Shown: one piece after another, positions 4,552-62,757 of the stretch | Layout: each line of letters starts with the position of its first letter | How positions within the stretch are numbered: position 1 is the stretch's first letter | Assembly: GCA_964023275.1 (NCBI GenBank) | Contig: OZ029928.1 | Coordinates: 16,915,676 to 16,979,675, forward strand | DNA length: 64,000 nucleotides | Direction: 5' to 3' | From: Norana najaformis | Lineage: Eukaryota; Annelida; Clitellata; Crassiclitellata; Hormogastridae | Translations under genes and position numbers: made by a program | The notes under the pieces: model-generated | Seen by the model: only the letters and a program-made list of their open reading frames with translations | What the model was told of the DNA's origin: nothing | Databases searched by the model: none

Positions 4552-5690
4552 TCATCTTGACGGTCTCCAATTTTCTTTGGCGAACATGACAAGCTTTCGT
4601 GCGTCGATCTGGTCCATCTTGAAGCTCTCGACGAGCATCGGTTCCGTCACGGTAACAAGAACGGCTCCGTCGACGACACGCTCCTTGAACTTCCGCGCAT
4701 ACTTCCTCAGCTTCAGCAGCTCGAGACAGTGCGCCACTTCGTCGACGGTCAGCGAAGCCACGTCCACATCTCGCGGGATCTCAGACGCATCCTTCCACTT
4801 GCGACGCTTCTCTGGAAGGACGCCGCTGTTGCGAGGATCCATCAGTTGTACGTACTGGTGGTCTCCTGTCCGGGCATGTCTGATATCTTCGTACAACTGC
4901 TCAGCCGGTGGGGTTTTGTCCTTTTTCTTCCGACGCAGGCCAGTCCCTGATTTCGGTTTCACCGGCTTCGGTTTCGCCCGGGTGTCGGCGGAAGGAGTTC
5001 GCGGATCTGGCAGTGGCGGTCTCGGGACTTTGTTCTTGGCAGCGGGGACGGCGGCAGCAAAGTCGGCGGGGTTCTTTGTCTTGGATTCTGCTGAGAATTG
5101 TAGCGACGCTTGGAACTGTTCGCTGATCTCTCGGATCGAGTCATACCCGCCGTCTTCGCCGTTACTCCAGTCGTTGCCTGCGGTTGAAGGAGGTGGGTCG
5201 GCTGGGCTGCGGGGTTCATGGTCGATGTCTAAGACGTTACCCATGGACCGGGTATGAGTCCGGGTCATCGGATAACCTGCCTCCGAGGCTGGAAAACAGT
5301 CATCCAGGAGGAATTCCTGCGACAGGGACCGGGTCTTCTTCTGTGTTCGGAAGTTGCAAACCGAAGGCGGAAGGTCAGCAACCCTCTCTGAAAGTGTTCT
5401 CGACGGAAGACCCTGCAGTACTCTCTGAGCGCTTCTCGCGTTGTCTCCACCACTCGGACCGGACTTTTCGAACCTTTTTCGAATACTTTCGACGTCGAGG
5501 CGATTGTTCGGAGCTTTTTGTTCCATAGCTGCAGTCGAGCCGACGTTTCCAGGTGAGCTGTTGTCGCTCGATTCCAGGTGAGGTGTTACCTGCGAAAGGT
5601 GATCGCTCTTGGCATCGGTGCTGTCTTTTCTGATAACGTAGAGGAGACTTGAATGCTGACTACCGTCGGAGTCGCAGAGCAGAACGATGT
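4552..5690 (-). CDS. CABIT-SAM gene exon 5 (linker, SAM domain, stop)
   Basis: Acceptor TTAACTTGTAG at 5692-5691. The frame is open for 379 codons to the stop at 4552, so coding starts upstream of the first ATG of the long open frame (5526). It opens [20 protein letters not shown], completes the CABIT module, then runs through a Ser/Pro-rich linker to a SAM domain with [13 protein letters not shown] and [13 protein letters not shown]. The domain ends four residues before the stop. Confidence 0.87.
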
Positions 5691-8600
5691 CTACAAGTTA
5701 AAATAGTATGACTCTTGGGCTCATTATGCATGCATTAAAGATTTTCCTCATTGGCTGAATGTCTTGAATAAATTAATAAATTAATCGTAATCATAATCCC
5801 GAGATTTCTACAGCGCCCAACGAAAGCCACCTCACGGGGACCAGCTTATTCACAGGCGCTCAGTCAAAACAAAATCGATAGGCAAAAGTGTTGGGTTCCA
5901 GGTCAAGATCCAAAAGTCAGGCAGAGAGACAGCGTGGCAGGTACGGTGAGTGATGTTTGGGATTGGAGCGGAAAGAGGGATAAGAGGAAGAAGGGGAGTG
6001 AGGATAGGATCTGTGAAAGAGGAATGTTTTCAGTTTTGAGTGAATGGTCGATGCAGAAAACTAATGAATGAGTGAATGAATTTACAAATACCAAACAAAA
6101 TATAGCATAGTAAAACCTAAACTAATAAATAAATAAACAGATTTACCATAAACCAATTTTTAAACAATAAGTTAACACGTTAACAGATAATCAAACAATT
6201 CATTAACTGATTGATTCATTTATTAATTATCTACAAAACGAAACTGACTAAACGCGCAAGTAAGTAAGAAAATAGCAAATAAATAAACAAATAAGTAAGG
6301 AAGTAAATAAATAAGTAAATAAATAAATGAAATGAATAGCCAGTCGGTGCCCATATACTGACCGGAAGATGATGGTGGTGCCGTCAGGAGAACAGGCGAC
6401 GGATGGATCTGCTGTTGGCGCAGAGCGTCTGTCCACTGTCGGAAATAGCTGGACGATCTCTTCCGAATTCCGACGACCAAGTCCAGAAGCAAAGGAGCTT
6501 TCGTCGAAATGAGTGTCAACCTCGACTCTAAGGTTGATCCTACGTAAGCAAACAAGCAAGCAAGTAAGTAAGTAGATAAGTAGGTAGGTAGGTAGATAGG
6601 TAGGAAGGAAGGTAGGTAAGTAAGTAAGCTAGCTAGCTAGCAAGCAAGCAAGCAGGTAGGTTGGTAGGTAGGTAGGTTGGTAGGTAGGTAGGTAGGTAGG
6701 TAGGTAGGTAGGTAGGTAGGTAGGTAGGTAGGTAGGTAGGTATGTTGGTAGGTAGGTAGGTAGGTAGGTAGGTAGGTAGGTAGGTAGGTAGGTAGGTAGG
6801 TAGGTAGGTAGGTAGGTAGGTAGGTAGGTAGGTAGGTAGATAGGTAGGTAGGTAGGTAGGTAGGTAGGTAGGTAGGTAGGTAGGTAGGTAGGTAGGTAGG
6901 TAGGTATGTTGGTAGGTAGGTAGGTAGGTAGGTAGGTAGGTCGGTAGGTAGGTAGGTAGGTAGGTAGGTAGGTAGGTAGGTAGGTAGGTAGGTAGGTAGG
7001 TAGGTAGGTAGGTAGGTAGGTAGGTAGGTAGGTAGGTAGGTAGGTAGGTAGGTAGGTAGGTAGGTAGGTTGGTCGGTAGGTTGGTCGGTAGGTTGGTCGG
7101 TAGGTAGGTATGTTGGTAGGTAGGTAGGTTGGTAGGTAGGTATATAGGTTGGTAGGTAGGTAGGTAGGTAGGTAAGCAAGTAAATAAGCAAGCAATAAAG
7201 TAGGTTTGGTAAGTAAGTAAGCAAGTAGGTAAGTAAGTAAGTAAATAAGTAAGTAGTAATTAATAGCACGAAACAAACGACCGGGCTTTCCAAACAACAA
7301 TGCGTACGGTTAAAAAGAAAGTGCAATGTCTGTAAAATGAAGCAGTTTTACTCCACAAGAGGATCCACTCTTGGATCTTGACCCGGAACCGAACCCTTTT
7401 GCCTATCGATTTTGTTTTGACTGAGCGCCTGTGAATAAGCTGGTCACCGCGGCGCGGCTTTCGTTGGGCGCTGTAGAAATCTTGGGATTACGATTACGAT
7501 TACAGTCTGACGTTGTAAACGTCTGTAACGTTTACATGATTACACCGTATTCACAGCGTGGCTACATCGCAGAAAGTTTCACCACTGCAGGCACCCTAAC
7601 TGGTCCACACCGTGCCCCTGTTGTCAGCTGGTAGATGTAGCCGGATGTAAGCTTGCGCAGGACTCATCGGGTTGCAAATTGATTTGCATCTACCATTTTT
7701 CATAGCTTTAAGTAATTAATTAGGCCTAGTTGTGAAAATGATAGAAAAAAACAGGCACTGTTTTTGTAGATAAGTTTGTCCACAGATCTTTTTCACTAGG
7801 TGCACTAAAAGGTATAGACACGTATGTATATGCATTTGTTTTCAAAACGTAAATGGGAAACGTCGACATGCTCTTGATATATACCTTTTCCTTGTAAGTC
7901 ATTAGGATGCCCGACTTGTGAAAACGATAGGAAAAACGTGACTGTTTTTGTAAATGTATTTGATTAAAGATCTTTTTCACTAGCTGTCCTGACAGATAGA
8001 CACATACATATGCATATACATAAGTTTTCAGAACGTAAATGGGAAACGACGACATGCTCTTGATATAGACCTGTCCCTGTAACTCATTAGGAATCTATAT
8101 GAGTTCATGCAACGGTTCTCAAACTTTCTGGTGCGAGGATCTCTTTACTCTCTTAAAAATTATCGAGGACCCTAAAGAGCTTTAATTTAAGTGGGTTATA
8201 TCTGTCGATATTTACCGTATTAGAAATTAAAACTAAGAAATTAATGTATTAATTCCTTACAAAGTAACAATAATAAACCCATTACATATTCGTATAAACG
8301 ACATCTTTTTTAATGAAAATTGGCTGTATTTTCCAAGTATTTTTTTAGTATTACTATGAAAATAGTTTAGACCTCGCGGACCCCTGAAATGGTCTTGGGG
8401 ACCACCACGGGTCCCCAGGGCTGGTGGTCCCCTGGGTCCTCGTACCACACTTTGAGAACCGCTGAGCTAAAAGTCATCTTTATCAACACTTCATACCATG
8501 GCTGCCTCTCAGAACAGGATGACCGCTCATCATCCTTTTCTTTTTCTAGTCTAGTCAGCTTATACAGAACTTAAATTTGATGCACGTATAACCACCAGTA

Positions 8601-9904
8601 AATAAGTAATTAAAGTAATACTTGCCCAGTTAGCTACATCGGTAAGTGCGTACGCCAAGGAGCCTCTGTGCGTGAGGATCCCAGGTTCGCGTCCCGGTCG
8701 TGGCTTATTTCAGAGATTTAAATCTCGGGCTAGTACGGTCCGTGCACGGGGAACTCAAATGGCGTAGCATCCATTCAAACGGACAGCGGTGGTGAAGGAT
8801 CTCACCCGATAAATTCATTGCAAAATGAGCAGGGTCGAGGCCATACGGTCGCTATATAAAACTTATACATTTACATTTACATTTAATACATTTGTTAACA
8901 TGCCATATGTCCATCGACTGAGCGAGGAATCGTAGGCGTATCATAACTTCACCCCTTGCAATTTCTGCGCAGGTCTTCCACTGAAAAGTGAAAATACCCC
9001 TCTTCCGCAGATCATATCCGGATTCGTCTTCTTCCCCTTATCTATCCTGCAGATCCATTTCCAAACACCACCCACCGTAGCCATCCTGACTGCCTGACTC
9101 TCGGATTGACCTGGAACCGAACCCTTGGATTCGAATCTCGGGCTAGCACGGTCCGTACGCGGGAACCTTAAATGGCGTGTCGCCCGTTCAAACGGGAAGG
9201 TGAAGGATCTCACCCGATCAATTCATTGAAAAATCAATGAGCAGAGTCGAGGTCATACGATCGCTGTGTAAAACCGTGCACATTTTACATTTACATTCTT
9301 GCCTATCGATTTTGTTTTGACTGAGCGTCTGTGAATAAGCCGGATAACGCGACTTAGCTTTCGTTGGGCGCTGTTGAAATCTCGACCTTATGATTACGAG
9401 AACTACTTCCTGGTTCGTTGGGAGGTTCACTTGTTCTTTCAGTGGGAAGGGGGTTGCCTTTCAGCTGATCTACATCTTTCGCTTTTCGTTTCTATTCTAC
9501 TGATGACTTTACATCGTCATCCATCTCTCCTCCCGGGATTTATTATCATGTGATATACTCTGGCATACTGATGCTAGTAAGCATGATGTTGATGTTGTTG
9601 TTGTTGTTCATGATGATGGTTGTGGTGGCGGCGATGATGATGACGACGATGATGATTATGAAGAACAGCAAGAGGATGAGGAAAACAAACAACAACCAGA
9701 AGAAGAAGAACAAGAACAAGAAGGAGGTGGTGATGGTGGTGGCAGTAATAGTAGTGTTTATATTATTATTATTATTATTATTATTATTTTTTTTTTTTTT
9801 TTACCAAGGTAAGTATAATCCCTTGGTTGTTCAAAAATTTATTGTTGTTGTTACTGTTGTTGTTATTATTGTTGTTGTTGTTATCTATATTGTTGTTGTT
9901 GTTG

Positions 9905-9993
<89 letters not shown>

Positions 9994-10898
9994 GTAACTA
10001 ATGGTTATAACATTGTGAGTCTATTCCACGAGGACTGAATTCATTTAAAATAACTTGTATGGGCGCCTTCCAATTCTTGATAGGGGCGCGATCAGAGACC
10101 ATGCCAAGCAAAGCGATTCAGAACAAGCCTTAAGTTCAAAATGGCGAATATTCAGTGGAATAAAAGTGCAAATTTTATTTCCCATTTGGTCCTTTTGCAA
10201 CAGTTTTTGCTGCAGTGCAGATAATGAAAATGCAGGAAACTGTCTATTTTATATTCAAAAAGAAAAACAGATTAAATAATAAATTATTAAAAACGACGGA
10301 CATACCATTAATTGCTTGGCCAACAAGGCACGTCTCTTCAATCATGGCGACCGCTGTAAGTTCTCCATAGGCAACGGCGTTTGTTAGGTCAGGTCGGATG
10401 CTAAGCATGACGTCAGGGTCGTCGTCAAGGGCAACTTTTACGTCACCAACGTTGCGAGTATTCTTGAACAGTTCCTTAAGAGTCGAAGGAGGACCTGCTA
10501 CAATTTAAGTTTCTTTTCATGAGTTCCCTGCCCGAAGGAGGTGCTGATGGTGGTGACAGTAATAGTAGTTGTGATATTATTATTATTGTTGTTGTTATTG
10601 TTATTGTTGTCGTTGTTATTATTATTATTATTACTAATTGACTTTATGCCTTTCGGGGATGAGATGAGTGGGGTGGATTCCCGTTACCTTCCTCACAGAC
10701 AATTGTGGGTGAGCAGCTTGCCCAAGGTTGCTACGCAGAAGGCCCGGTAAGAAGTAATACATTCGTTCTATATAATCCGTGGTCCATTTAGTACAGTTAG
10801 GTTAGATAAGGCGAAAAAACGTGAATAAAGCAATTTCTAAATAACTAGAATCTCTCTCTAAGGGTTCGTGGATCTTCTCCAAATGGAATGGCGCATGA

Positions 10899-10956
<58 letters not shown>

Positions 10957-13900
10957 GTTCTCTGCCCAAAGGCAGGTCCGTTGGCTTTATGCCATCCGGG
11001 GATGAGATGAGTGAGTTGGTTTCCCGTTGCCTTCCTCACAGACAGTTGTGGGTGAGCAACTTGTCCAAGATCGCTACGCAGTGGCTTGAGGCAGATTCGA
11101 ACCCGCGACCCTCCGGTTACAAGGCACAGACCATACCACTACTGGATGAGGCGTGTGAAATGCAAGGTGCTGCCACCTACCGGCGTGACGATAGACTACG
11201 TGAAACTTCGCCGGCGAATCCAGAGAAATTGAGATATATCGGTCGTTCTTTGAATGGAACAGAACCCTCTTTTGTCGATGTTTGTCATACACCCAGATTT
11301 GCTGTACAGCCAAAACAGCATAGGTTAATCTAATCTAATCTAATCTAATATCACATGATCTAATCTAATCTAATATCACATGATCTAATTTAATCTAATA
11401 TCACATGATCTAATCTAATCTAATATCACATGATTTAATCTAATATCACATGATTTAATCTAATCTAATATCACATGATCTAATCTAATCTAATATCACA
11501 TGATCTAATCTAATATCACATGATTTAATCTAATCTAATATCACATGATCTAATCTAATCTAATATCAGATGATCTGATCTAATCTAATATCACATGATC
11601 TAATCGTGCTGCATAAGGCATATAAAGCAGCGTACAAGTCGATTCACATACGCTCAGTCAAACTAAATCGGTGGGCAGGTAATTCAAGATCAGGTTCGGT
11701 TCCAAATCGAAATCGAAGGGTGAGGCAGACAGCTACCGCGGATGGTGTTTAGCATATGGGCTTGGTGGAAGTGACAAAGTCCACCATGGGTTAACCCACT
11801 TTATACACTCCTTTATATGCCTTGTGCGGCACAGTGGTCTGTCGGTAACGCGTTTGGTGAATAATCATGCGGTTGCGGGTTCGACTCCGCGAAACGATCC
11901 TGGGCAAGTTGTTTGGCATAAAGAAAAAGAGATGAGCGTCTCCCCTGCGTCTCACTTTTGTGATATGGGATACTTTACTTGTTATTCCATTCTGCTGCCT
12001 GCTACTTACTGCATTCCTGGTCAACTACTTACTGTATTCCTGGCCAACTACTTACTGTATTCCTGGCCAACTACTTATTGTATTCCTGGCCAACTACTTA
12101 TTGTATTCCTGGCCAACTACTTACTGTATTCCTGGCCAACTACTTACTGTATTCCTGGCCAACTACTTACTGTATTCCTGGCCAACTACTTACTGTATTC
12201 CTGGCCAACTACTTACTGTATTCCTGTCCAACTACTTACTGTATTCCTCGCCAACTACTTACTGTATTCCTGGCCAACTACTTACTGTATTCCTGGCCAA
12301 CTACTTACTGTATTCCTGGCCAACTACTTACTGTATTCCTGGCCAACTACTTACTGTATTCCTGGCCAACTACTTACTGTATTCCTGGCCAACTACTTAC
12401 TGTATTCCTCGCCAACTACTTACTGTATTCCTGGCCAACTACTTACTGTATTCCTGGCCAACTACTTACTGTATTCCTGTCCAACTACTTACTGTATTCC
12501 TGGCCAACTACTTACTGTATTCCTGGCCAACTACTTACTGTATTCCTGGCCAACTACTTACTGTATTCCTGGCCAACTACTTACTGTATTCCTCGCCAAC
12601 TACTTACTGTATTCCTGGCCAACTACTTACTGTATTCCTCGCCAACTACTTACTGTATTCCTGGCCAACTACTTACTGTATTCCTGGCCAACTACTTACT
12701 GTATTCCTGGCCAACTACTTACTGTATTCCTGGCCAACTACTTACTGTATTCCTGGCCAACTACTTACTGTATTCCTGGCCAACTACTTACTGTATTCCT
12801 GGCCAACTACTTACTGTATTCCTCGCCAACTACTTACTGTATTCCTGGCCAACTACTTACTGTATTCCTGGCCAACTACTTACTGTATTCCTGGCCAACT
12901 ACTTACTGTATTCCTGGCCAACTACTTACTGTATTCCTGGCCAACTACTTACTGTATTCCTGGCCAACTACTTATTGTATTCCTGGCCAACTACTTACTG
13001 TATTCCTCGCCAACTACTTACTGTATTCCTGGCCAACTACTTACTGTATTCCTGGCCAACTACTTACTGTATTCCTGGCCAACTACTTACTGTATTCCTG
13101 GCCAACTACTTACTGTATTCCTGGCCAACTACTTACTGTATTCCTGTCCAACTACTTACTGTATTCCTGGCCAACTACTTACTGTATTCCTGGCCAACTA
13201 CTTACTGTATTCCTGGCCAACTACTTACTGTATTCCTGGCCAACTACTTACTGTATTCCTCGCCAACTACTTACTGTATTCCTGGCCAACTACTTACTGT
13301 ATTCCTCGCCAACTACTTACTGTATTCCTGGCCAACTACTTACTGTATTCCTGGCCAACTACTTACTGTATTCCTGGCCAACTACTTACTGTATTCCTGG
13401 CCAACTACTTACTGTATTCCTGGCCAACTACTTACTGTATTCCTGGCCAACTACTTACTGTATTCCTGGCCAACTACTTACTGTATTCCTCGCCAACTAC
13501 TTACTGTATTCCTGGCCAACTACTTACTGTATTCCTGGCCAACTACTTACTGTATTCCTGGCCAACTACTTACTGTATTCCTGGCCAACTACTTACTGTA
13601 TTCCTGGCCAACTACTTACTGTATTCCTGGCCAACTACTTATTGTATTCCTGGCCAACTACTTACTGTATTCCTCGCCAACTACTTACTGTATTCCTGGC
13701 CAACTACTTACTGTATTCCTGGCCAACTACTTACTGTATTCCTGGCCAACCACTTACTGTATTCCTGGCCAACTACTTACTGTATTCCTGGCCAACCACT
13801 TACTGTATTCCTGGCCAACTGTGGGGCCGACAGTTCATAGTCGCCGGCGACCTGAACAATTCGTACGATGCAAGGGTCAGTGACATGGTCGAAGAACTGA

Positions 13901-13959
13901 CGAGCTGATAGTTGCTTGTCCGCCAGAACGAAATCGCCGAGCTGCATCGCTGCAAACAT
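4552..13959 (-). CDS. CABIT-SAM adaptor protein, GAREM-like (5 exons, complete)
   Basis: Joined from five minus-strand exons: 13959-13804, 11301-11181, 10497-10306, 6539-6363 and 5690-4552. Every junction is GT-AG and in phase (0,1,1,1), giving 594 codons plus stop. Residues 1 to about 260 form a CABIT module in two halves: [19 protein letters not shown] then [13 protein letters not shown] and [10 protein letters not shown], followed by the second half starting [21 protein letters not shown] low-complexity linker follows, with a PxxP stretch ([10 protein letters not shown], about 437-446) and possible phosphotyrosine sites YEDI (482) and YVQL (495). Residues about 528-590 form a SAM domain ending in ENWRP, as in GAREM, where CABIT plus a C-terminal SAM is diagnostic. 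Known GAREM proteins are cytoplasmic adaptors linking growth-factor receptors through Grb2 and Shp2 to ERK; that role here is inference. The first ATG has an in-frame TGA just upstream. The protein is shorter than vertebrate GAREM, mainly in the linker. No signal peptide or membrane span is visible. Confidence 0.85.
5785..6062 (+). mobile_element. SINE-A copy in CABIT-SAM intron 4
   Basis: Nearly complete: TCGTAATCATAATCCCGAG head, CAGCGCCCAACGAAAGCC, ACAGGCGCTCAGTCAAAAC, TCAGGCAGAGAGACAGCG, TTTGGGATTGGAGCGGAAAG, TTTTCAGTTTTGAGTGAATG. Confidence 0.8.
6063..6335. repeat. AAAT/AAGT-rich low complexity
   Basis: Imperfect AATAAATA and AAGTAAAT runs filling the rest of intron 4. Confidence 0.7.
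6363..6539 (-). CDS. CABIT-SAM gene exon 4
   Basis: Acceptor TTGCTTACGTAG, donor TTCCG/GTCAGT. It is 177 nt, phase 1 to phase 1. Of two open frames only the one reading [20 protein letters not shown] joins both neighbours in phase; the other frame (INLRVEV...) does not. The acceptor sits at the end of a roughly 650-bp CTAC-type microsatellite. Confidence 0.72.
6541..7250. repeat. AGGT microsatellite next to an acceptor
   Basis: Roughly 150 AGGT units (CTAC on the coding strand) with scattered variants. The array ends within about 10 bp of the exon 4 acceptor of the CABIT-SAM gene and supplies its pyrimidine-rich side. Confidence 0.9.
7371..7503 (-). mobile_element. SINE-A fragment
   Basis: CTTGGATCTTGACC, CCTATCGATTTTGTTTTGAC, TTTCGTTGGGCGCTGTAGA and the TCGTAA head at its right end. 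Confidence 0.75.
7731..8091. repeat. Tandem duplication, about 186 bp, two copies
   Basis: Copies at 7731-7916 and 7917-8091 share GATAGRAAAAA, ACTGTTTTTGTA, GATCTTTTTCACTAG, AACGTAAATGGGAAACG and GACATGCTCTTGATAT. Confidence 0.75.
8110..8464. mobile_element. hAT-type MITE
   Basis: Terminal inverted repeats: left CAACGGTTCTCAAACTTT with GGTGCGAGGA; right, read inward, CAGCGGTTCTCAAAGTGTGG with TACGAGGA. This CAG-GGTTCTCAAA terminus is characteristic of hAT-Charlie-type elements. 355 bp, no coding capacity. No clean 8-bp target duplication remains. Confidence 0.7.
8625..8890 (+). mobile_element. SINE-B, full length, tRNA-derived head
   Basis: Head AGTTAGCTACATCGGTAAG with box B-like GGTTCGCGTCCC at about 8683, core TCTCGGGCTAGTACGGTCC, AGGATCTCACCCGATAAATT, tail of ACATTT repeats. 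Confidence 0.75.
9030..9410 (-). mobile_element. SINE-A interrupted by a SINE-B
   Basis: SINE-A parts at about 9030-9125 (CCAAACACCACCCACCGTAG to GACCTGGAACCGAACCCTT) and 9298-9410 (TGCCTATCGATTTTGTTTTG to the head) flank a SINE-B copy. Confidence 0.75.
9126..9297 (+). mobile_element. SINE-B nested in SINE-A
   Basis: GAATCTCGGGCTAGCACGG, CGTTCAAACGGGAAGGTGAA, ATCTCACCCGATCAATTCA and an ACATTTACATT tail, inserted in the SINE-A stretch CCCTT/TTGCC. Confidence 0.75.
9580..10012. repeat. GAT, GAA and ATT trinucleotide arrays
   Basis: GATGAT, AGAAGAAC, TTATTA and TTG runs in CABIT-SAM intron 3. A short TACCAAGGTAAGTATAATCC insert (9802-9830) resembles the repeat at 57095 and 63680. Confidence 0.85.
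10306..10497 (-). CDS. CABIT-SAM gene exon 3
   Basis: 192 nt, phase 1 in and phase 1 out, donor AATG/GTATGT. It encodes [20 protein letters not shown] and a continuation ending GQAIN, the start of the second CABIT half. The acceptor is a TAGCAG tandem, so the exon may start at 10497 or 10494. Confidence 0.8.
10494..10500 (-). promoter_or_regulatory. NAGNAG tandem splice acceptor of exon 3
   Basis: The minus strand reads TAGCAG at the exon 3 border. Both AGs keep the frame; the choice would add or remove one Ala codon at the exon 2/3 junction (HAAGPP or HAGPP). Confidence 0.55.
10515..10745 (-). mobile_element. SINE-E copy with trinucleotide insert
   Basis: GAGTTCCCTGCCCGAAGG, then a TTA/TTG tract, then TTTCGGGGATGAGATGAG and CACAGACAATTGTGGGTGAG; in intron 2. 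Confidence 0.6.
10894..11150 (-). mobile_element. SINE-E copy
   Basis: Minus strand: GGAGGGTCGCGGGTTCGAAT (box B), CTTGGACAAGTTGCTCACCC, GGCAACGGGAAACCAAC, GGCAGAGAACTCATCATCAT. The (ATG)n on the plus strand is its 3' tail. Lies beside exon 2. Confidence 0.75.
11181..11301 (-). CDS. CABIT-SAM gene exon 2
   Basis: Acceptor GGCTGTACAG, donor GCCG/GTAGGT. It is 121 nt, phase 0 in and phase 1 out. It encodes [20 protein letters not shown] and then [13 protein letters not shown], the central CABIT strands, corresponding to the HYAGQFKLLE region of GAREM. A SINE-E copy ends only about 30 bp from its donor. Confidence 0.82.
11325..11605. repeat. TAATC-rich tandem array with ATATCACATGAT
   Basis: About eleven units of 20-25 bp, each TAATCTAATCTAATATCACA plus TGATC, in CABIT-SAM intron 1. 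Confidence 0.85.
11612..11755 (+). mobile_element. Degraded SINE-A fragment
   Basis: ACGCTCAGTCAAACTAAATC, GGTTCGGTTCCAAATCG and GAGGCAGACAGCTACCGCGG match the SINE-A middle. Confidence 0.5.
11820..11990 (+). mobile_element. SINE-C fragment, tRNA-derived head
   Basis: GTGCGGCACAGTGGTCTGTC GGTAACGCG (box A region), GCGGGTTCGACTCC (box B), CGATCCTGGGCAAGTTGTTT. It adjoins the distal end of the donor minisatellite. Confidence 0.75.
12009..13803 (-). repeat. 23-bp minisatellite made of the exon 1 splice donor junction (about 78 copies)
   Basis: Read on the gene's strand, each unit is 15 nt of exon 1 end (TTGGCCAGGAATACA) followed by 8 nt of intron start (GTAAGTAG, or GTAAGTGG in copies near the exon). 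Array length 1795 bp is 78 x 23. Most units carry an intact GTAAGT. Changes are sparse: CGAGGAAT for CCAGGAAT, GGACAGG for GGCCAGG, and at least four units with ATAAGT. Variant positions at 12591, 12637, 12821 and about 13004 recur exactly 667 bp later (29 units), so a large block was duplicated. Only the first donor leaves exon 2 in frame. The three plus-strand frames are open throughout but are artefacts. Confidence 0.93.
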
Positions 13960-13996
13960 CTTCACTCATGCGGAACGACCGATTTTCGAACTTACC
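13804..13996 (-). CDS. CABIT-SAM gene exon 1 (start codon exon)
   Basis: A strong acceptor (CTATTTCAG) precedes position 13996, so a noncoding first exon probably lies further upstream. Coding starts at the ATG at 13959; the codon two before it is TGA, which fixes the start. It encodes 52 residues, including [20 protein letters not shown], the first CABIT strands. The donor after AAT ACA (GTAAGT at 13803) is phase 0. It is the first of about 78 near-identical copies. Confidence 0.8.
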
Positions 13997-14042
13997 CTGA
14001 AATAGATGAAACGGAAAATATTGCTAAATGCTCAGAGAGTCA

Positions 14043-14215
14043 TTGATGATGATGATGATGATGATGATGATGCTGCTGCTGCTGATGATGATGATGAGTT
14101 CTCTGCCCGAAGGCAGGTCGTTTGCTTTATGCAACTTGTCCAAGGTCGATACCCAGTGGCTTGAGGCAGATTCGAACCCGCGATCCTCCGTACCACTACA
14201 CCATTGCGTCCCACA
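14043..14215 (-). mobile_element. SINE-E copy
   Basis: ATG/CTG repeat tail, GAGTTCTCTGCCCGAAGGCA, CTTGAGGCAGATTCGAACCC; the middle is deleted compared with 10894. Confidence 0.7.
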
Positions 14216-14229
14216 GACAGTCAATACAT

Positions 14230-14515
14230 ATTATTATTTCTGAATTTATTAAGCGCCACTATCTGATGACTAACCCATCAATCGATGGCGCTGAGGAATT
14301 GTGAGTGAAGGACTTGCTCAAGGTCCCTATACGTAACCGTCTCAAGAAAGAAGGCTCGAACCCCTGTTGTGGAGCCCATACTCTCAAAACCATAATTTCG
14401 AACCCTTAATGTCAAGTCCTTAGTCTCCAAATCGTACTCTCGAAAGCATACTCTCGAACCCGTACTCTCCGCGTTAGAAGCCGAAATTTCTAACCAGGCG
14501 GCTACTGTGCTTCAT
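14230..14515 (-). mobile_element. SINE-D copy
   Basis: TATTTCTGAATTTATTAAGC, CAATCGATGGCGCTGAGG, several CTCTCGAACCCGTA-type units and GGCGGCTACTGTGC at the head end. Confidence 0.7.
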
Positions 14516-14574
14516 ATTATAAAGGCTTACATGTTATAAAGAATGGTTTAAAATACTAAAAAAAGACAGGGTGG

Positions 14575-14690
14575 CATATCTGTGAGAAAGGCAACGGGAA
14601 ACCACCTTACTCATCTCACCCCCGAGTGGCATAAAGCCAATGGACCTGCCTTCAGGCAGAGAACTCATCATCATCATCAGCAGCAGCATA
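14575..14690 (+). mobile_element. SINE-E 3' part
   Basis: GGCAACGGGAAACCACC, GAGTGGCATAAAGCCAATGG, GGCAGAGAACTCATCATCAT. Confidence 0.65.
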
Positions 14691-15140
14691 TACATATGTA
14701 TATATATAAAGGAAGCCTAAGTAGTTCATATATATATATATATATATACATATGTGTGTGTGTGTGTGTCCTTCCTTAGTCTTCCTCTACAGGCGTGAAA
14801 GCAAGTCCGTTTCAGACGGTATTTGCCCTCGTACTGTTTCCTGCTTATGCGGTTATTAATCTTGATTTCGACAAGTTTCGTTTATAAGAGAGACCATCGA
14901 CTGTTGCATTGGCGCTATAGAAATCGTGAGATCACAGATCGATCGGATCGTGATGATATAAAGGATATCTTATATCCGAAGCGTAAATGCCACCACATTA
15001 ATCCGATAGCAGGGTATTTATTCGGCGTCCAACTTAGTGGCGATTGCAGGTTTTTGATCTCTCTGCATAACGTGACTTGTCGTAAATTAGCCACCATAAA
15101 TATGTCATCCTCTTCCGGCTTAGTCATCTACATCACGTTC
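14691..15140. other. TA/TG microsatellite then unassigned sequence
   Basis: TA and TG dinucleotide runs to about 14770; the rest has an open frame without recognisable domains. Confidence 0.45.
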
Positions 15141-15144
15141 TTTG

Positions 15145-15212
15145 ACCCTGTCTCTGTCTGTCTGTCTCTCTTTCTATGTCTCTCTCTTCCTCTGTCTGTC
15201 TGTTTGTCTGTC

Positions 15213-15305
<93 letters not shown>

Positions 15306-15705
15306 CCTACCTACCTACCTACCTACCTACCTACCTACCTACCTACCTACCTACCTACCTACCTACCTACCTACCTACCTACCTACCTACCTACCTACCT
15401 ACCTACCTACCTACCTACCTACCTACCTACCTACCTACCTACCTACCTACCTACCTGCCTATCTGTCAATGTCTCTCTGTCTTTGTCTCTCCTCTCCTCT
15501 CCTCTCCACTTCTCTGCTCGCTTCTCCTCTCCTCTCCTCTTTCTCTCTGTATTTCTCTCTCTCTCTCTCTCTCTGTATTTCTATCTCTCTCTCGCTCTCT
15601 CTGTATCTCTCTCTCTTTCTTTCTTTCTCTCTCTCTCTCTCTGTCTGTCTCTTTCTGTATGTCTGTCTGTCTGTCTCTCTCTCTCTCTTTATTTCTCTGT
15701 TTCAC
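15145..15705. repeat. TCTG/ATCT/ACCT/TC array
   Basis: About 25 ATCT units (15208-15303) switch cleanly to about 38 ACCT units (15303-15455), flanked by TCTG and TC runs. Confidence 0.9.
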
Positions 15706-15974
15706 ACAGCTAGTCATCTCAGAGGTCGAAAGGTCAAATTCGCGGCCCTAGCGACCTCAACTACAAAATGAATACATCGACCGTACACTGCCGGCTTGAA
15801 GATCAGGCGACGTGGGAGAGCACTAGCCACCCGCCTTCATCTACCGAAGCTAAAAACTGAAGTTGCTAAAAACTCTCACCATAAACCCTCTCGGGATTTG
15901 CTTAAAGGACTATTCATGTCCTCTTTCTCTATGCCCTGGGTGGGTGAAGCATTGTTAAATGGTCAAACCGTTCA
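15706..15974. other. No feature recognised
   Basis: Short open frames only. Confidence 0.35.
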
Positions 15975-16240
15975 ATCCCACATGCGTAATAAATTTAATT
16001 GATAATAGATAATAAATGAATAAATTAATTAATACAAACATTCATAATGAATTTAAATAATATATAAATAAATAAATAATTACAAACATGCATAATGAAT
16101 TTAATTGATGATAAATGAATAAATAAATTAATACAAACATGCATAATGAATTTAATTGATAATTAATTAATAAATTAATTAATACAAACATGCATAATGA
16201 ATTTAATTGATAATTAATAAATAAATAAATTAGTTAATAC
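15975..16240. repeat. AT-rich tandem repeat, about 55-65 bp, 4-5 copies
   Basis: Units contain TTAATACAAACATGCATAAT and GAATTTAATTGATAATA. Confidence 0.75.
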
Positions 16241-16435
16241 AAACGCCGTACTTTTTCGTGCACTGGACGTTCACCCGGTAAAAAACACGCGCTGCTCAGG
16301 ATGTCTTCCGTTGCACCTCTTAACATCAGTTAAACAGCCATCTTTTGGCACCTTTGTTATTCAATAAATCAATAACATCAATAAACAATGTTCAATGCTC
16401 AATATAAAAGCGCTCTATGGTATCTAGACACATGC

Positions 16436-16605
16436 TTCTTCTTCTTCTTCCTCTTCCTCTTCTTCTTTGCGTTCTTCTTCGCGTTCTTCTTCGCGTTCTT
16501 CTTCGCGTTCTTCTTCGCGTTCTTCTTCGCGTTCTTCTTCGCGTTCTTCTTCGCGTTCTTCTTCGCGTTCTTCTTCGCGTTCTTCTTCCCGTTCTTCTCG
16601 TACTA
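16436..16605. repeat. 12-bp TTCTTCGCG minisatellite
   Basis: About 12 copies of GCGTTCTTCTTC after a TTC run. Confidence 0.88.
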
Positions 16606-16609
16606 CTTC

Positions 16610-16735
16610 CTTCCGGCTGAAATTAATCACTCCTGGGGAGGGGTCAGGCTCATGAATCCTTCTTTTCCCTTTGTTTCTATCTCCATTATCTTCAGACTGA
16701 AGAAAGAAGATATTGGAGATAGAAACAAAATGTAT
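16610..16735. mobile_element. Fold-back piece of the same LINE C-terminal tail
   Basis: Shares GGCTGAAATTAATC and GTTTCTATCTCCA with 56330-56420. GTTTCTATCTCCA and its complement TGGAGATAGAAAC lie about 40 bp apart, so the fragment is present as a short inverted duplication. Confidence 0.45.
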
Positions 16736-16740
16736 CTTGG

Positions 16741-17030
16741 CATATGCTTAAAATCAGTAAAAACTAATATTTTAAAAATACTGCGTATACTTTTACCAGT
16801 ATATTATAAACTTCTGTCTTGAATTTCTGTATGTATACGATACTTAATGGAGCCCCTAGCATATCAGTTAAACAGCTATCTTTTGGTCCATTTATGATTC
16901 GTTTAAAGGCTCTATATCAATGCTTAAAATCATCAAAAATTAATATTATGAAAATACTGCGTATATTCTTATCAGTAAATTATAAATTTCGGTCTCGAAT
17001 TTTTATATGTATACGATAATATTGGAGTGG
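16741..17030. repeat. Imperfect direct repeat, about 180 bp
   Basis: GCTTAAAATCA, AATACTGCGTATA, TATAAAYTTC and TGTATACGATA occur at 16745-16850 and again at 16921-17030. Confidence 0.6.
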
Positions 17031-17319
17031 AGCTCATATAACAGACCTTGTAATCCTGTGTAGTCAAGCTGTATAGTTAAGTCCTGTATATGTAAGTTAA
17101 GCCCGATATCCTCATAGCGATCGGTGTCACACCCGCATATATTATCCTCAACCTTAATAGTTCCTGAACGGCCTAACTGTCCAAAGGGACAGCAACACTG
17201 GCCTATAATGTAGGCCAACCGACTTTTTTAATATCACTAGGCCCATTTGAATAATTATATAATATGGGGCAGCCTCATCACTCAAGTCCTTTCACTTTTA
17301 CCGGCAGAATGACACACAT
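17031..17319. other. No feature recognised
   Basis: Unique-looking sequence without supportable features. Confidence 0.35.
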
Positions 17320-17575
17320 AAATACATGCATATATACATACATACATACAAATGTATTATATACAAACATGCATACATACATACATACATACATACATTC
17401 TTACATACGTACATACTTACATACTTACACTTGTGCATATATACACCATACATACATTCATGCATACATATATACGTACATGCATACATACATTCATACA
17501 TAAATACATACTTATATACGTACAAACATGCATACGTACATACATACATAAATAAACACATACATACATACACTG
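17320..17575. repeat. ACAT microsatellite
   Basis: Imperfect ACAT/GCAT tetranucleotides. Confidence 0.9.
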
Positions 17576-17614
17576 ATTACGTCATACAGATATACCTGCG
17601 TATTCATATCGTAT

Positions 17615-17822
17615 CGTATTTGATGATTTATATAGCGCTTCTTACAGAACGAACTACTCAGAAGCGCTTCCAGCATGAGAACCCGGGGGAATAAGAAGGT
17701 CTATAAACAACGAGCTGACTCAGGTCTGTTTCCAGCAGAGACCTTTGCAGAAATAGAAGGCGGAAGTCCATTCCATGGAAATGGGCCAATAACAGCAAAA
17801 GCCCTTTGCTGCGACATGGAGG
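17615..17822 (-). mobile_element. L2/CR1-like LINE 3' fragment
   Basis: Minus-strand relative of 31540-31735 (CATGCTGGAAGCGCTTCTGA, then AGCGCTATATAAATCATC and a tail of ATACG repeats). Confidence 0.5.
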
Positions 17823-17824
17823 AC

Positions 17825-18120
17825 TTAAACGTATCGTAATCGTAATCCCGAGATTTCTACAGCGCCCAACGAAAGCCACGTCACGGGGACCAGCTTATTC
17901 ACAGGCGCTCAGTCAAAACAAAATCGATAGGCAAAAGAGGTTTGGTTCCAAGCCCAGATCCAAAAGTCAGGCAGAGAGACAGCGTGGCAGCTACGAAGGG
18001 TGATGTTTGGGATTGGAGAGGAAAGAGAGATAAGAAGAGGAAGAGGAGCGATTATAGGATCTGTGAAAGAGGAATGTTTTCAGTTTTGAGTGAAAGGCCA
18101 GCGCAGAAATTGCAAGCGGT
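17825..18120 (+). mobile_element. SINE-A, near full length
   Basis: ATCGTAATCGTAATCCCGAG to TCAGTTTTGAGTGAAAGGCC and CGCAGAAATTGCAAG; the best complete copy in the window. Confidence 0.82.
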
Positions 18121-18624
18121 GGATCATAAAATGAGTTCGTATGATTGGTCAGTCAACTGTCACAGTTCTGGCGTGAGTTTGTAAATGTCAAGACACACAC
18201 AAACACCACACACAACATACACGAATAACACTGTTTTTTCTTCTTCCCGTTTACACGGACTCGAGTGTAAAATGCTATAGTAGGCTGCATTATAGGAAAT
18301 TACAACCATACTCTCGAACCCCTGTGGGGTTTCCATATTGTTATATACTGTGCATTCTGCCTCTGTCACTGCTAGCCATACTCGCCTGATTGGCCAGAAA
18401 TTGTACAGCTGGTCATTTCCTTCAGTTAGGGAATCCCCAGCTTAAAGTTGATGGCTAAGTCATAAATTGTAATCATTTAGAGAAGGCCGTTACAGTTCAT
18501 TTGGCTCAAGAAAACCAGAAGTTAGGCTCTACGATGGGTTTAAATTGGATTCTTTGGATGGGCAACCAGTATAATGGAGGTTAAATGGGTGCAATACACT
18601 GAACGTGTATACAACTCTGGTAGG
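18121..18624. other. No gene recognised
   Basis: Contains a short CTCTCGAACCCCTG piece like the SINE-D head (about 18310) but nothing else supportable. Confidence 0.35.
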
Positions 18625-18850
18625 CTCGTAATCGTAATCTCGAGACTTCAGCGAACCAACTTATTCACAGGCACTCAATCAAAACAAAACCGATAGACAG
18701 GAAGGGTTCGGTTCCGGGTCAAGAGTCAGGCAGGCTGACAGGTAGACGGCTGTGGCGTTTGGAATTGACCCGGAAAGTGAGATAAGGGGAAAAGGAAGAA
18801 TCAGGATGGGATTTGTGGAAGAGGAGTGTTTTCAGTTGTGATATTGTTAT
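18625..18850 (+). mobile_element. Degraded SINE-A
   Basis: TCGTAATCTCGAGACTTCAG, ACTTATTCACAGGCACTCAA, GAAGGGTTCGGTTCCGGGTC; the 5' core is partly lost. Confidence 0.65.
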
Positions 18851-19774
18851 TAGGATGGGTAGCCAACCAACCGTTCATGGAATGGCAGGCCATCGAGGCC
18901 AACTCAGCCTTCCATCCTTCAAATACTTACGTACGAAGGCTGGTTGCAATGTTAAAATATGGTGTCTTGTCGTTGAGTTGCTGTGGCTGTTTGGGTCTCA
19001 AATTGCGACCTTACCTCAAATATCTAGTTAGCTTTAAATCGCAATAAAGTTAGCTTTAAATCGCAATAATTTATTGCCTTTATGGCCTTTTCTATTATAA
19101 TACGGGTATTCTCACGATGGTTTCATTTTGCTTCAAGTATTATTGCGATCAGTGCTTTTCTCGGAAAAAAGGTCCCGGCACTGAACAATTATGGAATTTT
19201 GTGCTAAAATATCATTATTTTCATCAATCAATAAACACTGAAAACAGTGTAAAATTGCAAACACTGAAATTGAACTAAAATGTTACATTATATTACATGA
19301 TTAAAATAACTTAGTAACACAACTCTTATTAAAAACTAAATTATTTTTGATTAGCTGAAAAAGATACCGGAACGCCGTTTGAAAAAAGCACCGATTAAGA
19401 TAAATGTGACCTTTCATGTACGAAATGAATGATTACTAGCTCACTTACTAGCCTCAGTGTGGCGACACCTTGCGATATGATGCAGTATCATACTTAGAAT
19501 AACGCTGACGGATAAACATTGAAATGTCATTATCTCGTACAGTTTCATTTTCCAAAAAAAATTGCCTTTTGCTGCACAAAAAGAAAACAGTTAGACGCTG
19601 AAAATGACTCGGATAAAAATAAATTTGTAAAAGCGAAAACTGATCGTAAACACATTTTTAGGTGTAATTTGACGTAATAATACACGGTACGAACGACTCT
19701 TACCTGTAAAAAATCGTCTGGTCTTTTCTGGTGTTAAGTAAATAAGTAAGTAATGTTTAGTAAGCATATAAACA
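18851..19774. other. AT-rich, no gene recognised
   Basis: A 21-bp direct repeat around TAGCTTTAAATCGCAATAA occurs at 19028 and 19050. Otherwise unassigned. Confidence 0.4.
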
Positions 19775-20165
19775 CAGTGGCATACATACATACATAAATA
19801 TTTACATGCATACATTCATATACATACATGCATGCATACATACCACATACACATATACATTCATGCATGCATGCATATATACATACGCACATTCATACAT
19901 AAATACATACATACATGCATACATACATACATAAATACTTACATGCATACATTCATATACATACATGCACGCATACATACCACATACACACATACATTCA
20001 TGCATGCATACATATATACATACGCACATTCATACATAAATACATACATACATAAATAAATACACACATTCATGCATGCATGCATACATACGCACATTCA
20101 TACATACATACATACATACATAAATACATGCATACATTCATATGCATACACATAACATAACATAA
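19775..20165. repeat. ACAT microsatellite
   Basis: Two similar blocks of about 120 bp repeat ATTCATATACATACATGC and CATACCACATACAC. Confidence 0.88.
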
Positions 20166-21843
20166 CATTCTTTTTATTGATCCAAAAAGAGAAATATAAC
20201 AGCGAAAAGCATAATATTCACAATTGTTGTAGGAAACAAAAGGAGAACCCAGAAGGGACCAAAGTCCCGCTTATTAGGGTCCCCCCTGTACCAACAGCTA
20301 TTGCTAAATGACGAGTGATTGACAGCATCATTAACTGAAAAAAACATAGTAGAATCTGAACGAGTTGTAATACAAAAAAAATGAACCAAACAAGAATAAA
20401 CCTTAACTAGTGAAAAACTAAAAAACAAAAACATATTTTTTATTTATTTAGATCATTAAGGTACTCGCGCATTGCTTTCTTGAACAATATCAAATTAGGC
20501 TCAGAACGAATATCGTGCGATATATTATTCCAAACAGAAGGACCAGCACATTTGATAGAAAACAGTCGAGTGTTGGTACGGGCAAAACTTGCACGGAAAT
20601 CACCCCGAGATCTAGTAAGATGTGCATGGAGCTCAGATATACTGGAGAAGTAACCAATGAAAGCAGAGGGAAGTAGGTTATGAGCAAAACGATACATAAA
20701 TTCACTAATTTGCAGTATATTAATCTGCTCAATTTGTAAAATATTGTAGTCGTAAAAGAGTTTATCAGAAGAAGAATATGGTGGGTTTCCCGTGATGATG
20801 CGAATAGCTCTTTTTTGAAGTACAATTAATCTCCTAAGCCGGGAATGGTAAGTTGATGCCCAAACAATATTACAGTATGCCAGGTATGGGTAAATAAATG
20901 AATAATACAGATTAATAAGAATATAACGAGGTAATAAATAACTAATACGAGACAATATTCCTATATTTTTAGCAATTTTAGTAGATATGTTCTTAATATG
21001 ATCTTTCCATGTCAAGTGCTCATCAACATAAACACCAAGAAATTTAGAAGTTTTAACTTGCGAAAGTGTTATGTTATCGATAGAGACTACTATATTCTGA
21101 TTAAGAATTAATTTTTTATGAGAACGAAACAGGATATAATTAGTTTTCGACAAATTAAGCGATAATTTATTAGCCTTAAACCAGTCAGCAACAACTATAA
21201 GTTCGGTATTCACATGCTCTAGCAATGAATCCAAAGATTTATGAGATAAAGAAACATTCGTATCATCAGCAAATAAAATAAAGTGCAGTGAAGATGATGA
21301 ATTAGGAAGGTCATTGATGTAAAGTAAGAACAGCAAGGGTCCCAGATTGGAACCCTGAGGAACACCACATCGACTAGTTCTTATCTGGGATAAGGTACTA
21401 TTACACATAACCAGTTGTTGTCTATTACCGAGATAATTGGTAAACCAGCGAAGTGTAATATCACGTATACCATAATTTTCAAGTTTTCCCAACAGAATTT
21501 GATGATCAACAGTATCAAACACTTTAGCCAAATCAAAAAAAAATGCCAATAGAGAATTCATTATGATCAATAGCATACGAAATTTTGTCATGCATATTTA
21601 GTAATGACATTGATGTAGAATGACCGGATTGAAACCCATGCTGTAGAGGGTACAGAATATTCATACTACAAACATAATTATACAGTCTCTCATACATCAG
21701 TTTTTCCAATGCTTTAGGAAACAATGGTAAGATAGAAATTGGCCTGTAGTTAGTGACATCTTCTTTATTTCCTTGTTTGAATATAGGCACAACTTTAGCA
21801 ATTTTTAAGACAGATGGTACAATTCCGGTTGAAAACGAACAGT
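20166..21843 (-). mobile_element. 5'-truncated LINE (Jockey/CR1-like) with reverse transcriptase
   Basis: The minus strand encodes most of a reverse transcriptase: YRPISILPLFPKALEKLMYE, then AKVFDTVDHQILLGKL, CGVPQGSNLGPLLFLLYIND, the catalytic FADDTNV and NKLSLNLSKTNYILF. The thumb and C-terminal part runs to LNDLNK* at 20440. There is a single frame change near 21540. The 3' UTR runs to about 20170 and ends in TTATG repeats. No endonuclease domain remains; the 5' end abuts an ACAT microsatellite. Shared 3' ends at about 46497 and 56672 show a multicopy family. Confidence 0.88.
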
Positions 21844-22444
21844 ATATACATAAATATATACATGCATACATACCACACATACACACATACATTTATGCCT
21901 CCTCACTAGGACTGCCAACCGCCCCGGATTCGCCTGGACAGTCCCGGAATCGGCCTTGTGCGTCCCGTGTCCCGGAATGATCCCAAATTGTCCAGGAACT
22001 TGGTCTAAATATCCACTTCACCAAATGTTCTTCTTCTTTTCGCACATTAAACTCGAACAGCCGGCCGTAAATAAGTTTTACAGAGCGACCATAAAATAGA
22101 GTGTAATTAGGTTGGTAGACCCAATAAATGAAAACTGCATGCAGTATGCATGTATATATGAACTTCACTCGTTCGAGGCCCTGAAGCCTGGTAGGTTACT
22201 GGAATTTATAAAACGTTTTGCTCTTGAAGTTGATTCGGATTCTATACATAGGCCACTTGTCTCTTGATGATTTGAGTCAAATCATTTGACTGAAGGGGCC
22301 TAATTTTTAACGACTATTTGCAGTAGATCCTACATTAGGCTGACGCAACATTCGCTACATACCGTGATGTGGAGAGGGTAAATTGGTACTCGCATATCGA
22401 GTGACTAAGCGGGCGTCCCGGAGTGGCGGAATGAAAAGTTTGAA
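21844..22444. other. ACAT stub and unassigned sequence, possible hAT end
   Basis: 21905-22010 (GACTGCCAACCGCCCCGGAT, then repeated TCCCGGAAT) resembles hAT element termini; no second terminus was found. Confidence 0.35.
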
Positions 22445-23470
22445 GCCTTAATATACATACACAGACATATATGCATGCATACATACCACACACACACATT
22501 CATGCATGCATACATATATACATACGCACATTCATACATACTAACATACATACATAAATACTTACATGCATACATTCATATACATACACACATACATAAC
22601 ATACATGCATGCATGCATACACACGCACATTCATACATAAACATACATACATACACATAATTACATAAATAAATACATGCGTACAGTCATGTATACATTC
22701 ATATACATACACATACATACATACATACATACATACATGCCTGCATACATACCATACATACATACATACATACATACATGCCTGCATACATACCATACAT
22801 ACATACATACATACATACATACAAACGCACATCCATACTTAAATACATACATACATAAATACTTACATGCATACGTTCATGCATACATGCGTATGCATAC
22901 ACATACATACATATATACATGCATACATATCACACATACACAGATACATTCGTGCATGCACGCATGCATACATACATACATAAATACTTCCACGCATACA
23001 TTCATGCATATATTCATATACATACACTCATACATGCATACATACATACAAACACGCATACACACATGCATACATACATACATACATACATGCATATATA
23101 CATACAAACACGCATACACACATGCATACATACCTACATACATACATACATACATACATACATACATACAAACACGCATACACACATGCATACATACATA
23201 CATGCATACATACATACATACACACATGCATACATACATACATACAAACACGCATACATATATACATACATACATACATACATACATACATACACACATG
23301 CATACATACATACATACAAACACGCATACATATATACATACATACATACATGCATACATACATACATACACACATGCATACATACATACATACAAACACG
23401 CATACATATATACATACATACATACATACATACATACATACACACACACATACACACATACATACATGAG
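22445..23470. repeat. ACAT microsatellite, 1 kb
   Basis: Long imperfect ACAT array with internal blocks such as CATACAAACACGCATACAC repeated about seven times. All long open frames here are artefacts. Confidence 0.92.
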
Positions 23471-23789
23471 CTTTCCAGTTGTCTCATACCAAATGCAACG
23501 TTTGCAATTAAAAAGGGTTTATCGGCCCACGTGGATAGCTACAACGGTGATATATGTCCCAAGGCTTCAGCACGCAACAGCAGAACGAAAATAAGCGCTA
23601 CATAAATTGCTTACTGTCACCAACCTGAGGGCCTAAATCCAAATAATCTCGAGGCAGAAAATGAAATTTTCCGCGGAGTTAGAACTCACGATTGATGTCA
23701 GAACCAATTTACCGACTCACTGCAAGCTCTTTGAAATTCTTCAACAAACTCATACATACATGCTTAAATGTACCGTATATATTATTATG
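23471..23789. other. No gene recognised
   Basis: Unique-looking between two microsatellites; AATAAGCGCTACATAAATTG looks like a SINE or LINE tail. Confidence 0.35.
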
Positions 23790-23882
<93 letters not shown>

Positions 23883-24076
23883 GCATAGACAGACGCATAG
23901 ACAGACAGGCAGGCAGACAGACAGACATACGCATAGACAGACAGACAGACAGACAGACAGGCAGGCAGACAGACAGACAGTATAGGAACGAATATAAAGT
24001 GAACTGCGGATACATCTCCTGGTGAAAATACGAGGTAAAATCGAGCTCAGACAGACCGACAGACAGACAGAAAGAA

Positions 24077-24107
<31 letters not shown>

Positions 24108-24209
24108 AATGACAGACAGACAGAGACAAACTGTATGGGCACGAATATGAAAGTGAGCCGTGGAGACATCCACCGACCCCTGGTGAAAATAAGAGGAAAT
24201 ATCGCATTC

Positions 24210-24246
<37 letters not shown>

Positions 24247-24250
24247 GCAT
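23790..24250. repeat. CAGA arrays separated by a repeated spacer
   Basis: Three CAGA blocks (23790-23980, 24050-24125, 24208-24245) are separated by two related spacers of about 75 bp with AACGAATATAAAGTGA or ACGAATATGAAAGTGA and CCTGGTGAAAATA. Confidence 0.85.
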
Positions 24251-25205: not shown

Positions 25206-25394
25206 TGAGTTTTTGCTACCAGACAACGTGAGTCCTGTCTACACTGGTGTCTGTTCTCAGTAGACGTGGCTCTGAAGGTCGTAATGCTTTGGTGTAACGA
25301 GAGAAGAGTGCGTGTATCGGCCTGAAAACCCTGTGAAAATGATAGATGGGAATGTGGGGATAATCTATTAGCGCCTTTTCTCCCCCATGAGCAA
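25206..25394. other. No feature recognised
   Basis: The 18-mer ATGAGCAACTGGCACTTG at its right end recurs at 25808. Confidence 0.35.
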
Positions 25395-25705: not shown

Positions 25706-25714
25706 ACACCTGCC

Positions 25715-34740: not shown

Positions 34741-35490
34741 AACCACGGTTTTTCGAAACACCAGGTTGTGCGCTGCGTTCCCCCATACATCGCCATCTTT
34801 CTCGCATGGACCCACACATCCGATCCTTGCGATTTTCAACACGGTTTGAGCGATTGCCGCCCAATTATAAACATTGCCGTTTCAACACAACCACTGTTCT
34901 CTGAAAGCAAGGTTGTGCCGTAAACAGTTATCTATCTCGCGCAGGTCCTAAATTTTTAACTGGGGCGACCGCTGCCTGACGACCAAAGACACAGGGATGG
35001 CCTTCAGCGCCAGCATGGTCCGTCAATCAGTTGTTGCCAAGGGAGCCTTTGGCCCAACGTATCGACCGCTCGACAGACCGTTAACAACGAGCCTACTAGA
35101 GGTGATTCACGTCAGCCGACACCCGGCAGAGCTCCCCGTGGGGGCGGACGGTCTAGGGGCCGCAGCCGCTGGGTCCTCGGGAGCCCAGGGGGCAGCCTCG
35201 GTCGCCGCAACTGCTGCGGGTCTGTCGATGGCCGTGCTGTTACTAATCATCGTCGCTTCGCTGACGGTCGTCGTTGGAGCTATCTATCTACTCATCTACT
35301 TCAAAAGCATTAAACCGATGTCGGCCAGGTCTCGCAGCTACATGGAACAGGGTGGAAAGGCCCACCAGGATGACGATGGTGCAAGGGGTCGATCCGCCCA
35401 CCCATTTTTCAGACGGTCGTGAGATGTGCACGTGTGCGTTTTCGCAACAGTCATCCCCCGCCGTCAATTCCGCGATTATTAAAATTAAAC
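34741..35490 (+). CDS. Probable terminal exon: unrecognised small single-pass membrane protein
   Basis: A strong acceptor (TTTCTGTCTTTTGCAG, ending 34740) is followed by about 256 nt of apparent 5' UTR and a 141-codon open frame at 34997-35422. The product has an Ala/Gly-rich middle, one hydrophobic span (residues about 75-103, including SMAVLLLIIVASLTVVVGAI) and a basic C-terminal tail of about 38 residues. GC-rich third codon positions differ from the AT-rich surroundings, supporting coding. ATTAAA lies 56 nt after the stop. I do not recognise the family. A 34-codon upstream frame begins at 34807. It could instead be an isolated chance frame. Confidence 0.42.
35478..35489 (+). promoter_or_regulatory. 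Possible poly(A) signals (two ATTAAA)
   Basis: Two overlapping ATTAAA hexamers, the commonest variant of AATAAA, follow the 141-codon frame and would end its transcript near 35510. Confidence 0.3.

Positions 35491-37336: not shown

Positions 37337-37404
<68 letters not shown>

Positions 37405-41106: not shown

Positions 41107-41164
<58 letters not shown>

Positions 41165-42772: not shown

Positions 42773-62757
<19,985 letters not shown>

Follow-up and report, generated by a model that had tools for sequence, protein, structure and literature searches.

The stretch of DNA analysed here, referred to as the window, comprises 64,000 nucleotides of the annelid Norana najaformis and lies on contig OZ029928.1 (C16), one of 17 contigs that make up a genome of 608,420,607 bases. 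It carries a receptor guanylate cyclase gene on the forward strand and, on the reverse strand, a gene that was called "CABIT-SAM" in a first-pass annotation of the letters alone (Table 1). In a protein search, the draft protein of the receptor gene matched an atrial natriuretic peptide receptor, 41% of the query being aligned with 49% identity. The name "CABIT-SAM" is that of the first-pass annotation; a Pfam search of the product gave no match to CABIT and a match to SAM only below the cut-off. As determined by hand, exon 1 of this gene ends in phase 0 and joins phase 0 of the exon at 11181-11301. The latter was apparently not counted previously, which raises the number of donors from the 25 reported to 26. 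Apart from these genes, a remnant resembling the reverse transcriptase of a LINE-type element (approximately 20200-21850, reverse strand) and an open frame resembling a small single-pass membrane protein (34997-35421, forward strand) were recognized by eye, and a SINE-like element with an (ATTACG)n tail is present in 12 copies in the window (e.g. at 5808, 17857 and 60023).

Table 1. Genes, exons and donor-associated arrays in the window (positions are those of the window; a slash marks the exon/intron border).
Feature	Position	Strand	Basis
Receptor guanylate cyclase gene, 22 exons a to v; exon a ends at 43001	42744-62757	+	open frames and splice sites
Receptor exon c (exon 3 of the first-pass annotation)	44874..45112	+	open frame and splice sites
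Receptor exon n (exon 14 of the first-pass annotation)	55033..55194	+	open frame and splice sites
Receptor exon r (exon 18 of the first-pass annotation)	59578..59715	+	open frame and splice sites
"CABIT-SAM" exon 1, coding part, first ATG to donor ACA/GTAAGT	13804..13959	-	start from reading frame
"CABIT-SAM", other exons	11181-11301, 10306-10497, 6363-6539, 4551-5690	-	
Array across the exon 1 donor, 79 units of 23 bp	12002..13818	-	
Array adjoining the exon c donor, 15 units of 15 bp, without exon sequence	45113..45337	+	
Seven repeats of the end of exon n	55183..55472	+	
Array across the exon r donor, 6 units of 53 bp, continuing into a SINE-like element	59697..60014	+	
Donor s, leading into a GTAT/GTGT microsatellite	60630..60667	+	sequence; scored as touching
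Donor t, leading into a (GTAT)n microsatellite	61147..61360 (end approximate)	+	sequence; scored as touching

Tandem arrays had been reported at the donors of CABIT-SAM exon 1 and of receptor exons c, n and r, and all four were found where they had been placed. The array at exon 1 begins 15 bases inside the exon, and its 23-bp unit consists of 15 exon bases followed by 8 intron bases, with GT kept in 75 of the 79 copies. A 121-base piece of this array gave 21 matches in a genome search that skips very common words, and 21/21 lay inside the array itself. Since all matches fall within it and the unit holds the end of the exon, the array was born locally from the end of exon 1. Further, a block of 29 units that includes six variant units occurs in it twice, head to tail and in exact copies; no block with six was obtained in 2000 shuffles (0/2000). 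Therefore, the array grew at least once by the copying of about 670 bases at a time. Splicing from the second donor copy would shift the reading frame and splicing from the third would lead to a stop (determined by hand), so that the protein is preserved by the first copy only.

The array at exon c starts at intron base +1 and lacks exon sequence, and thus touches the border without spanning it. It is in frame with exon c and open for 14 units (VGGPY-like) before a TAG, making it a possible candidate for coding or truncating read-through. At exon n the copies start at positions 55184 to 55452, are spaced by 93, 91 and then 21 bp, include 12 exon bases and keep GT in 4/7 cases. The 53-bp unit at exon r includes 19 exon bases, and GTAAGT is kept in 6/6 copies; because one copy of the SINE-like element lies directly behind donor r, the tail of that element forms part of this unit. 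Donors s and t both read GTATGT, and a third donor that opens into a microsatellite was encountered outside the window (L088, C2:33494364). An intron of the receptor gene harbors, at 53395-53805, an array of about 20 copies of the 20-bp unit TTAGATTAGATTAGATTGGG with 97% match.

To what extent donors differ from acceptors and from the background was analyzed for the window as a whole. Tandem arrays cover 30% of it, and those with a period of 7 or more cover 20%. With the latter, 3/26 donors were spanned and a further 3/26 touched, as compared with 0/26 acceptors; of random window positions, 19.5% were spanned and 2.6% touched (22% together). At this background, six or more hits among 26 donors are expected with p = 0.53, while the chance of finding none among 26 acceptors is p = 0.0015. 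It is therefore the acceptors and not the donors that stand out, and the striking feature of the window is its protected acceptors. The repetition of sequence at the four reported donors is indeed far beyond chance, but the number of donors hit is not. When donors were compared directly with acceptors, Fisher's test gave p = 0.023 for sites spanned or touched, in a window that had been picked for its donor arrays, and p = 0.24 for sites spanned alone. Arrays that only touch the border were found at 3/26 donors where 0.7 were expected from the 2.6% background (p = 0.028, or p = 0.085 if all periods are counted). A probe test for copies of the border in the next 1.4 kb was positive at a score of at least 14 for 3/26 donors (5/26 at 13) and for 0/26 acceptors, the best of which scored 9. 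Random intron positions reached a score of at least 14 in 31% of cases in the receptor gene and in 45% in the CABIT-SAM gene.

An independent sample was obtained by locating the exons of three gene families, myosin heads, Cpn60/TCP1 chaperonins and SNF transporters, in the genome. The 88 multi-exon loci were merged into 68 stretches of together 242,617 bases that hold 123 of the 248 listed exon hits, two single-exon chaperonin hits being excluded. Splice sites were called with typical weights, and 92/119 called donors and 105/108 acceptors entered the TRF count after 27 donors and 3 acceptors had been dropped as weak or uncertain calls. The one dropped donor of the 27 that was inspected by hand, C4:40402327, lies in an array and was rescued, and the call at C2:33494364 had been placed too far downstream of the real donor, which opens into a microsatellite.

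One of the 92 donors was spanned by an array and one touched, and among the 105 acceptors three were spanned and one touched; random positions in the sample were spanned in 5.3% and touched in 1.3% of cases (6.5% together). After correction by hand, 3/93 donors compared with 4/105 acceptors (Fisher p = 1.0). The probe test at a score of at least 14 was positive downstream of 4/113 donors and upstream of 5/104 acceptors, with 6.8% and 7.1% at the respective random positions. The first-pass annotation had suggested the donor as the common cause of the arrays and had proposed a scan of donors against acceptors and random intron positions, in which the lack of an excess at donors would speak against this idea. 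Performed on our sample, the scan gave exactly this outcome: donors at 2/92 (3/93 after correction) did not exceed acceptors at 4/105 or random positions at 6.5%. With sample and window pooled, 9/119 donors and 4/131 acceptors were hit (p = 0.15); leaving out one acceptor that stems from a whole-exon duplication lowers this to p = 0.07, a value that takes in the window, itself selected for donor arrays.

Exons of the sample were also compared with their own flanks, and copies of at least 20 bases were found for 9/123, five upstream and four downstream, with 0 in shuffled flanks. Two of the four downstream copies were judged to be hits that run over into simple repeats. The five upstream copies comprise two clean acceptor arrays, one whole-exon duplicate, one partial exon copy and one exon 3' end with its donor. 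Array coverage near genes amounted to 10.5% for SNF transporters, 4.3% for myosins and 2.3% for chaperonins, and nearly all border arrays of the sample lie in SNF genes. Two side observations were made in these stretches. At L071 (C1:18083702) the copy of a tandem whole-exon duplicate looks open in frame and has splice sites, and the two may be a candidate pair of mutually exclusive exons. The intron arrays M33 (L024, L026) and M40 (L068, L075, L084, L089) contain strong donor-like motifs on the antisense strand.

The two acceptor arrays consist of units that each hold the intron end, the AG and about 15 exon bases. At C1:29397514 a 43-bp unit is present six times, i.e. in five extra copies, and at C4:40392618 a unit of about 45 bp is present five times, i.e. 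in four extra copies. The exon at C4:40402327, located 9.6 kb from the latter on the same strand, matches the part of the profile that comes before it and has at its end an array of 136 bp x 7. Its own donor reads GGCG/GTCTGT, and GA replaces GT in 6/6 extra copies. Apparently, this donor array of SNF exon 1 and the acceptor array of exon 2 (C4:40392618-40402479; L066, L070) represent the two ends of one putative intron, the sequence read covering both ends.

Taken together, these results are probably explained by minisatellites that arise and grow locally without regard to exon borders and that are tolerated where the site next to the exon can still be used. Minisatellites would arise by local tandem duplication and enlarge by the exchange of multi-unit blocks, and the duplication process would act throughout the introns of the genome, disregarding exon borders. 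Whenever a duplicated segment includes the edge of an exon, the resulting array would place further copies of the splice site, be it a donor or an acceptor, in the intron. Arrays of this kind could persist as long as the site beside the exon body stays usable, which would be the 5'-most one in a donor array and the 3'-most one in an acceptor array. In favor of this explanation are the local origin and the block duplication of the 23-bp array, the like anatomy at both intron ends and the lack of a donor excess in the sample. We infer that splicing makes use of the site adjacent to the exon and that arrays disturbing it are eliminated by selection. Counting against it are the six donors versus no acceptor in the window, the excess of touched donors, the lean of the pooled data towards donors and an excess of donor hexamers in array units. 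Of the interpretation given in the first-pass annotation, the part that regards the arrays as locally born tandem duplications of exon borders is thus upheld, and the donor as their common cause finds no support.

An alternative is a direct role of the donor, with tandem duplication at the exon/intron border being provoked by the donor sequence itself, by nascent RNA bound to U1 or by the end of an R-loop. In favor of it are the following observations: 6/26 donors against 0/26 acceptors in the window, GTATGT donors s and t that open into GTAT microsatellites, and donor hexamers in 15/156 array units as compared with 6.6 in shuffles, none of which reached 15 (0/200). The hexamer excess was rejected as support for a donor trigger, because the strong motifs are mostly antisense. 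Among 128 arrays, a score of at least 5 was found for 1 sense and 6 antisense motifs, of at least 4 for 4 and 6, and of at least 3 for 6 and 10; the mean best donor score, calculated with a floor at -15, favors the sense strand by 1.0. The independent sample, which shows clean acceptor arrays and no donor excess, argues against a donor trigger as well. R-loop ends, which had been put forward as a possible driver, find no counterpart in strand composition, the sense strand being G-rich in 55/108 arrays (p = 0.92). If chaperonins are the more expressed genes, an array coverage that is lowest near them (2.3% against 10.5% near SNF transporters) is the opposite of what germline transcription as a driver predicts. 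We consider this explanation improbable. No genome-wide account of donor-triggered arrays was found in the literature searched.

Less probable still is a selected function, with the copied donors acting as decoys or regulators or with the exon c array as coding (VGGPY)n sequence that is read through in some transcripts. The retention of GT in 75/79 copies at exon 1 and the 14 open units behind exon c would agree with it, but GT is lost in 3/7 copies at exon n and in 6/6 extra copies of the C4 transporter, unit lengths of 23, 21 and 53 bp are not divisible by three, and array turnover accounts for the homogeneity of units within an array. We attach equally little credence to an assembly artefact or a dispersed satellite inserted beside exons. 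The assembly of tandem arrays is difficult, and their copy numbers may be in error; however, the units contain the end of the very exon they adjoin, the 23-bp unit was found in its own array only, and a like anatomy is seen again on other contigs, in genes that are unrelated.

Duplications of splice sites have been described in several other systems. In the model of Rogers and in the case of potato RdRp, introns are gained by tandem duplication around splice signals within a gene (PMC4974935). The tandem duplication around splice signals is shared with the arrays described here, whereas in the model a new intron emerges from duplicated exon sequence and here the intron pre-exists and contains the copies. 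Because the copies at exons 1, c, n and r are intronic and the exons on either side are joined in frame when they are left out, none of these introns qualifies as a new one. Genes in human segmental duplications contain internal tandem repeats and minisatellite expansions at exon-intron boundaries (PMC2812944). The minisatellite expansion is shared with the arrays in this study; the changes of exons, introns and splicing of recent paralogues were described for the human repeats.

Closer in anatomy are the "mirages" of amphioxus, which the first-pass annotation had named and which are real, with a matching anatomy according to PMC3087553 and PMC3902484. These are minisatellite-like tandem copies of exon/intron boundaries, 5' as well as 3', in Adh3, the globins BflGb6 and BflGb9, and PGBD5. 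Many copies keep GT or AG, and units measure 10-72 bp in Adh3 and 150-160 bp in the globins; according to the authors, splicing is seemingly undisturbed and length is unstable (PMC3087553, PMC3902484). Like mirages, the arrays at exons 1, n and r, the two acceptor arrays and the array at C4:40402327 include the exon/intron boundary, while that at exon c only touches it. Border arrays occur at both intron ends in the genome sample, as they do in mirages, and in the window at donors only (6/26 versus 0/26). Judged by these features, the window loci appear to behave as mirages. The GFP family, carried by cephalochordates (PMC4911609), gave 0 matches in this genome, and so did the molluscan haemocyanin family, in searches that cannot prove absence.

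A second counterpart is the "exon stuttering" of chicken (PMC12954441, 2026), in which pieces of exon edges with the donor or acceptor are copied tandemly into the adjacent intron amid an intron-wide expansion of repeats, the source lying within 1 base of the border in >90% of cases. It was described for 115 genes and 236 introns, 190/236 of them on dot chromosomes. Similarly, the exon-derived segments at exons 1, n and r, which measure 15, 12 and 19 bases, extend to the border, and 9/123 sampled exons have copies nearby. The cases found here come from contigs C1, C4 and C16. In this small sample, array coverage showed no trend with contig rank that would point to a bias towards small chromosomes as in chicken (Spearman 0.20 against contig number, p = 0.44); the GC content was 39% in the loci and 41% in the window.

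Several chromosomes of this annelid thus may show an intron repeat turnover like that of amphioxus and chicken, in which both kinds of border are copied, and border copying may accompany the birth of minisatellites in animals generally, as a by-product that keeps spare splice sites in constant supply; we regard the chances for and against this broader view as even. Should it hold, minisatellite-rich genomes would be expected to contain many spare splice sites, and intron sliding, intron gain and splicing noise would become directly countable. A donor-only pattern in one window, however striking, needs comparison with acceptors and with the local repeat density. If border arrays are the product of plain minisatellite growth, neither the mirages of amphioxus nor the exon stuttering of chicken would need a special trigger.
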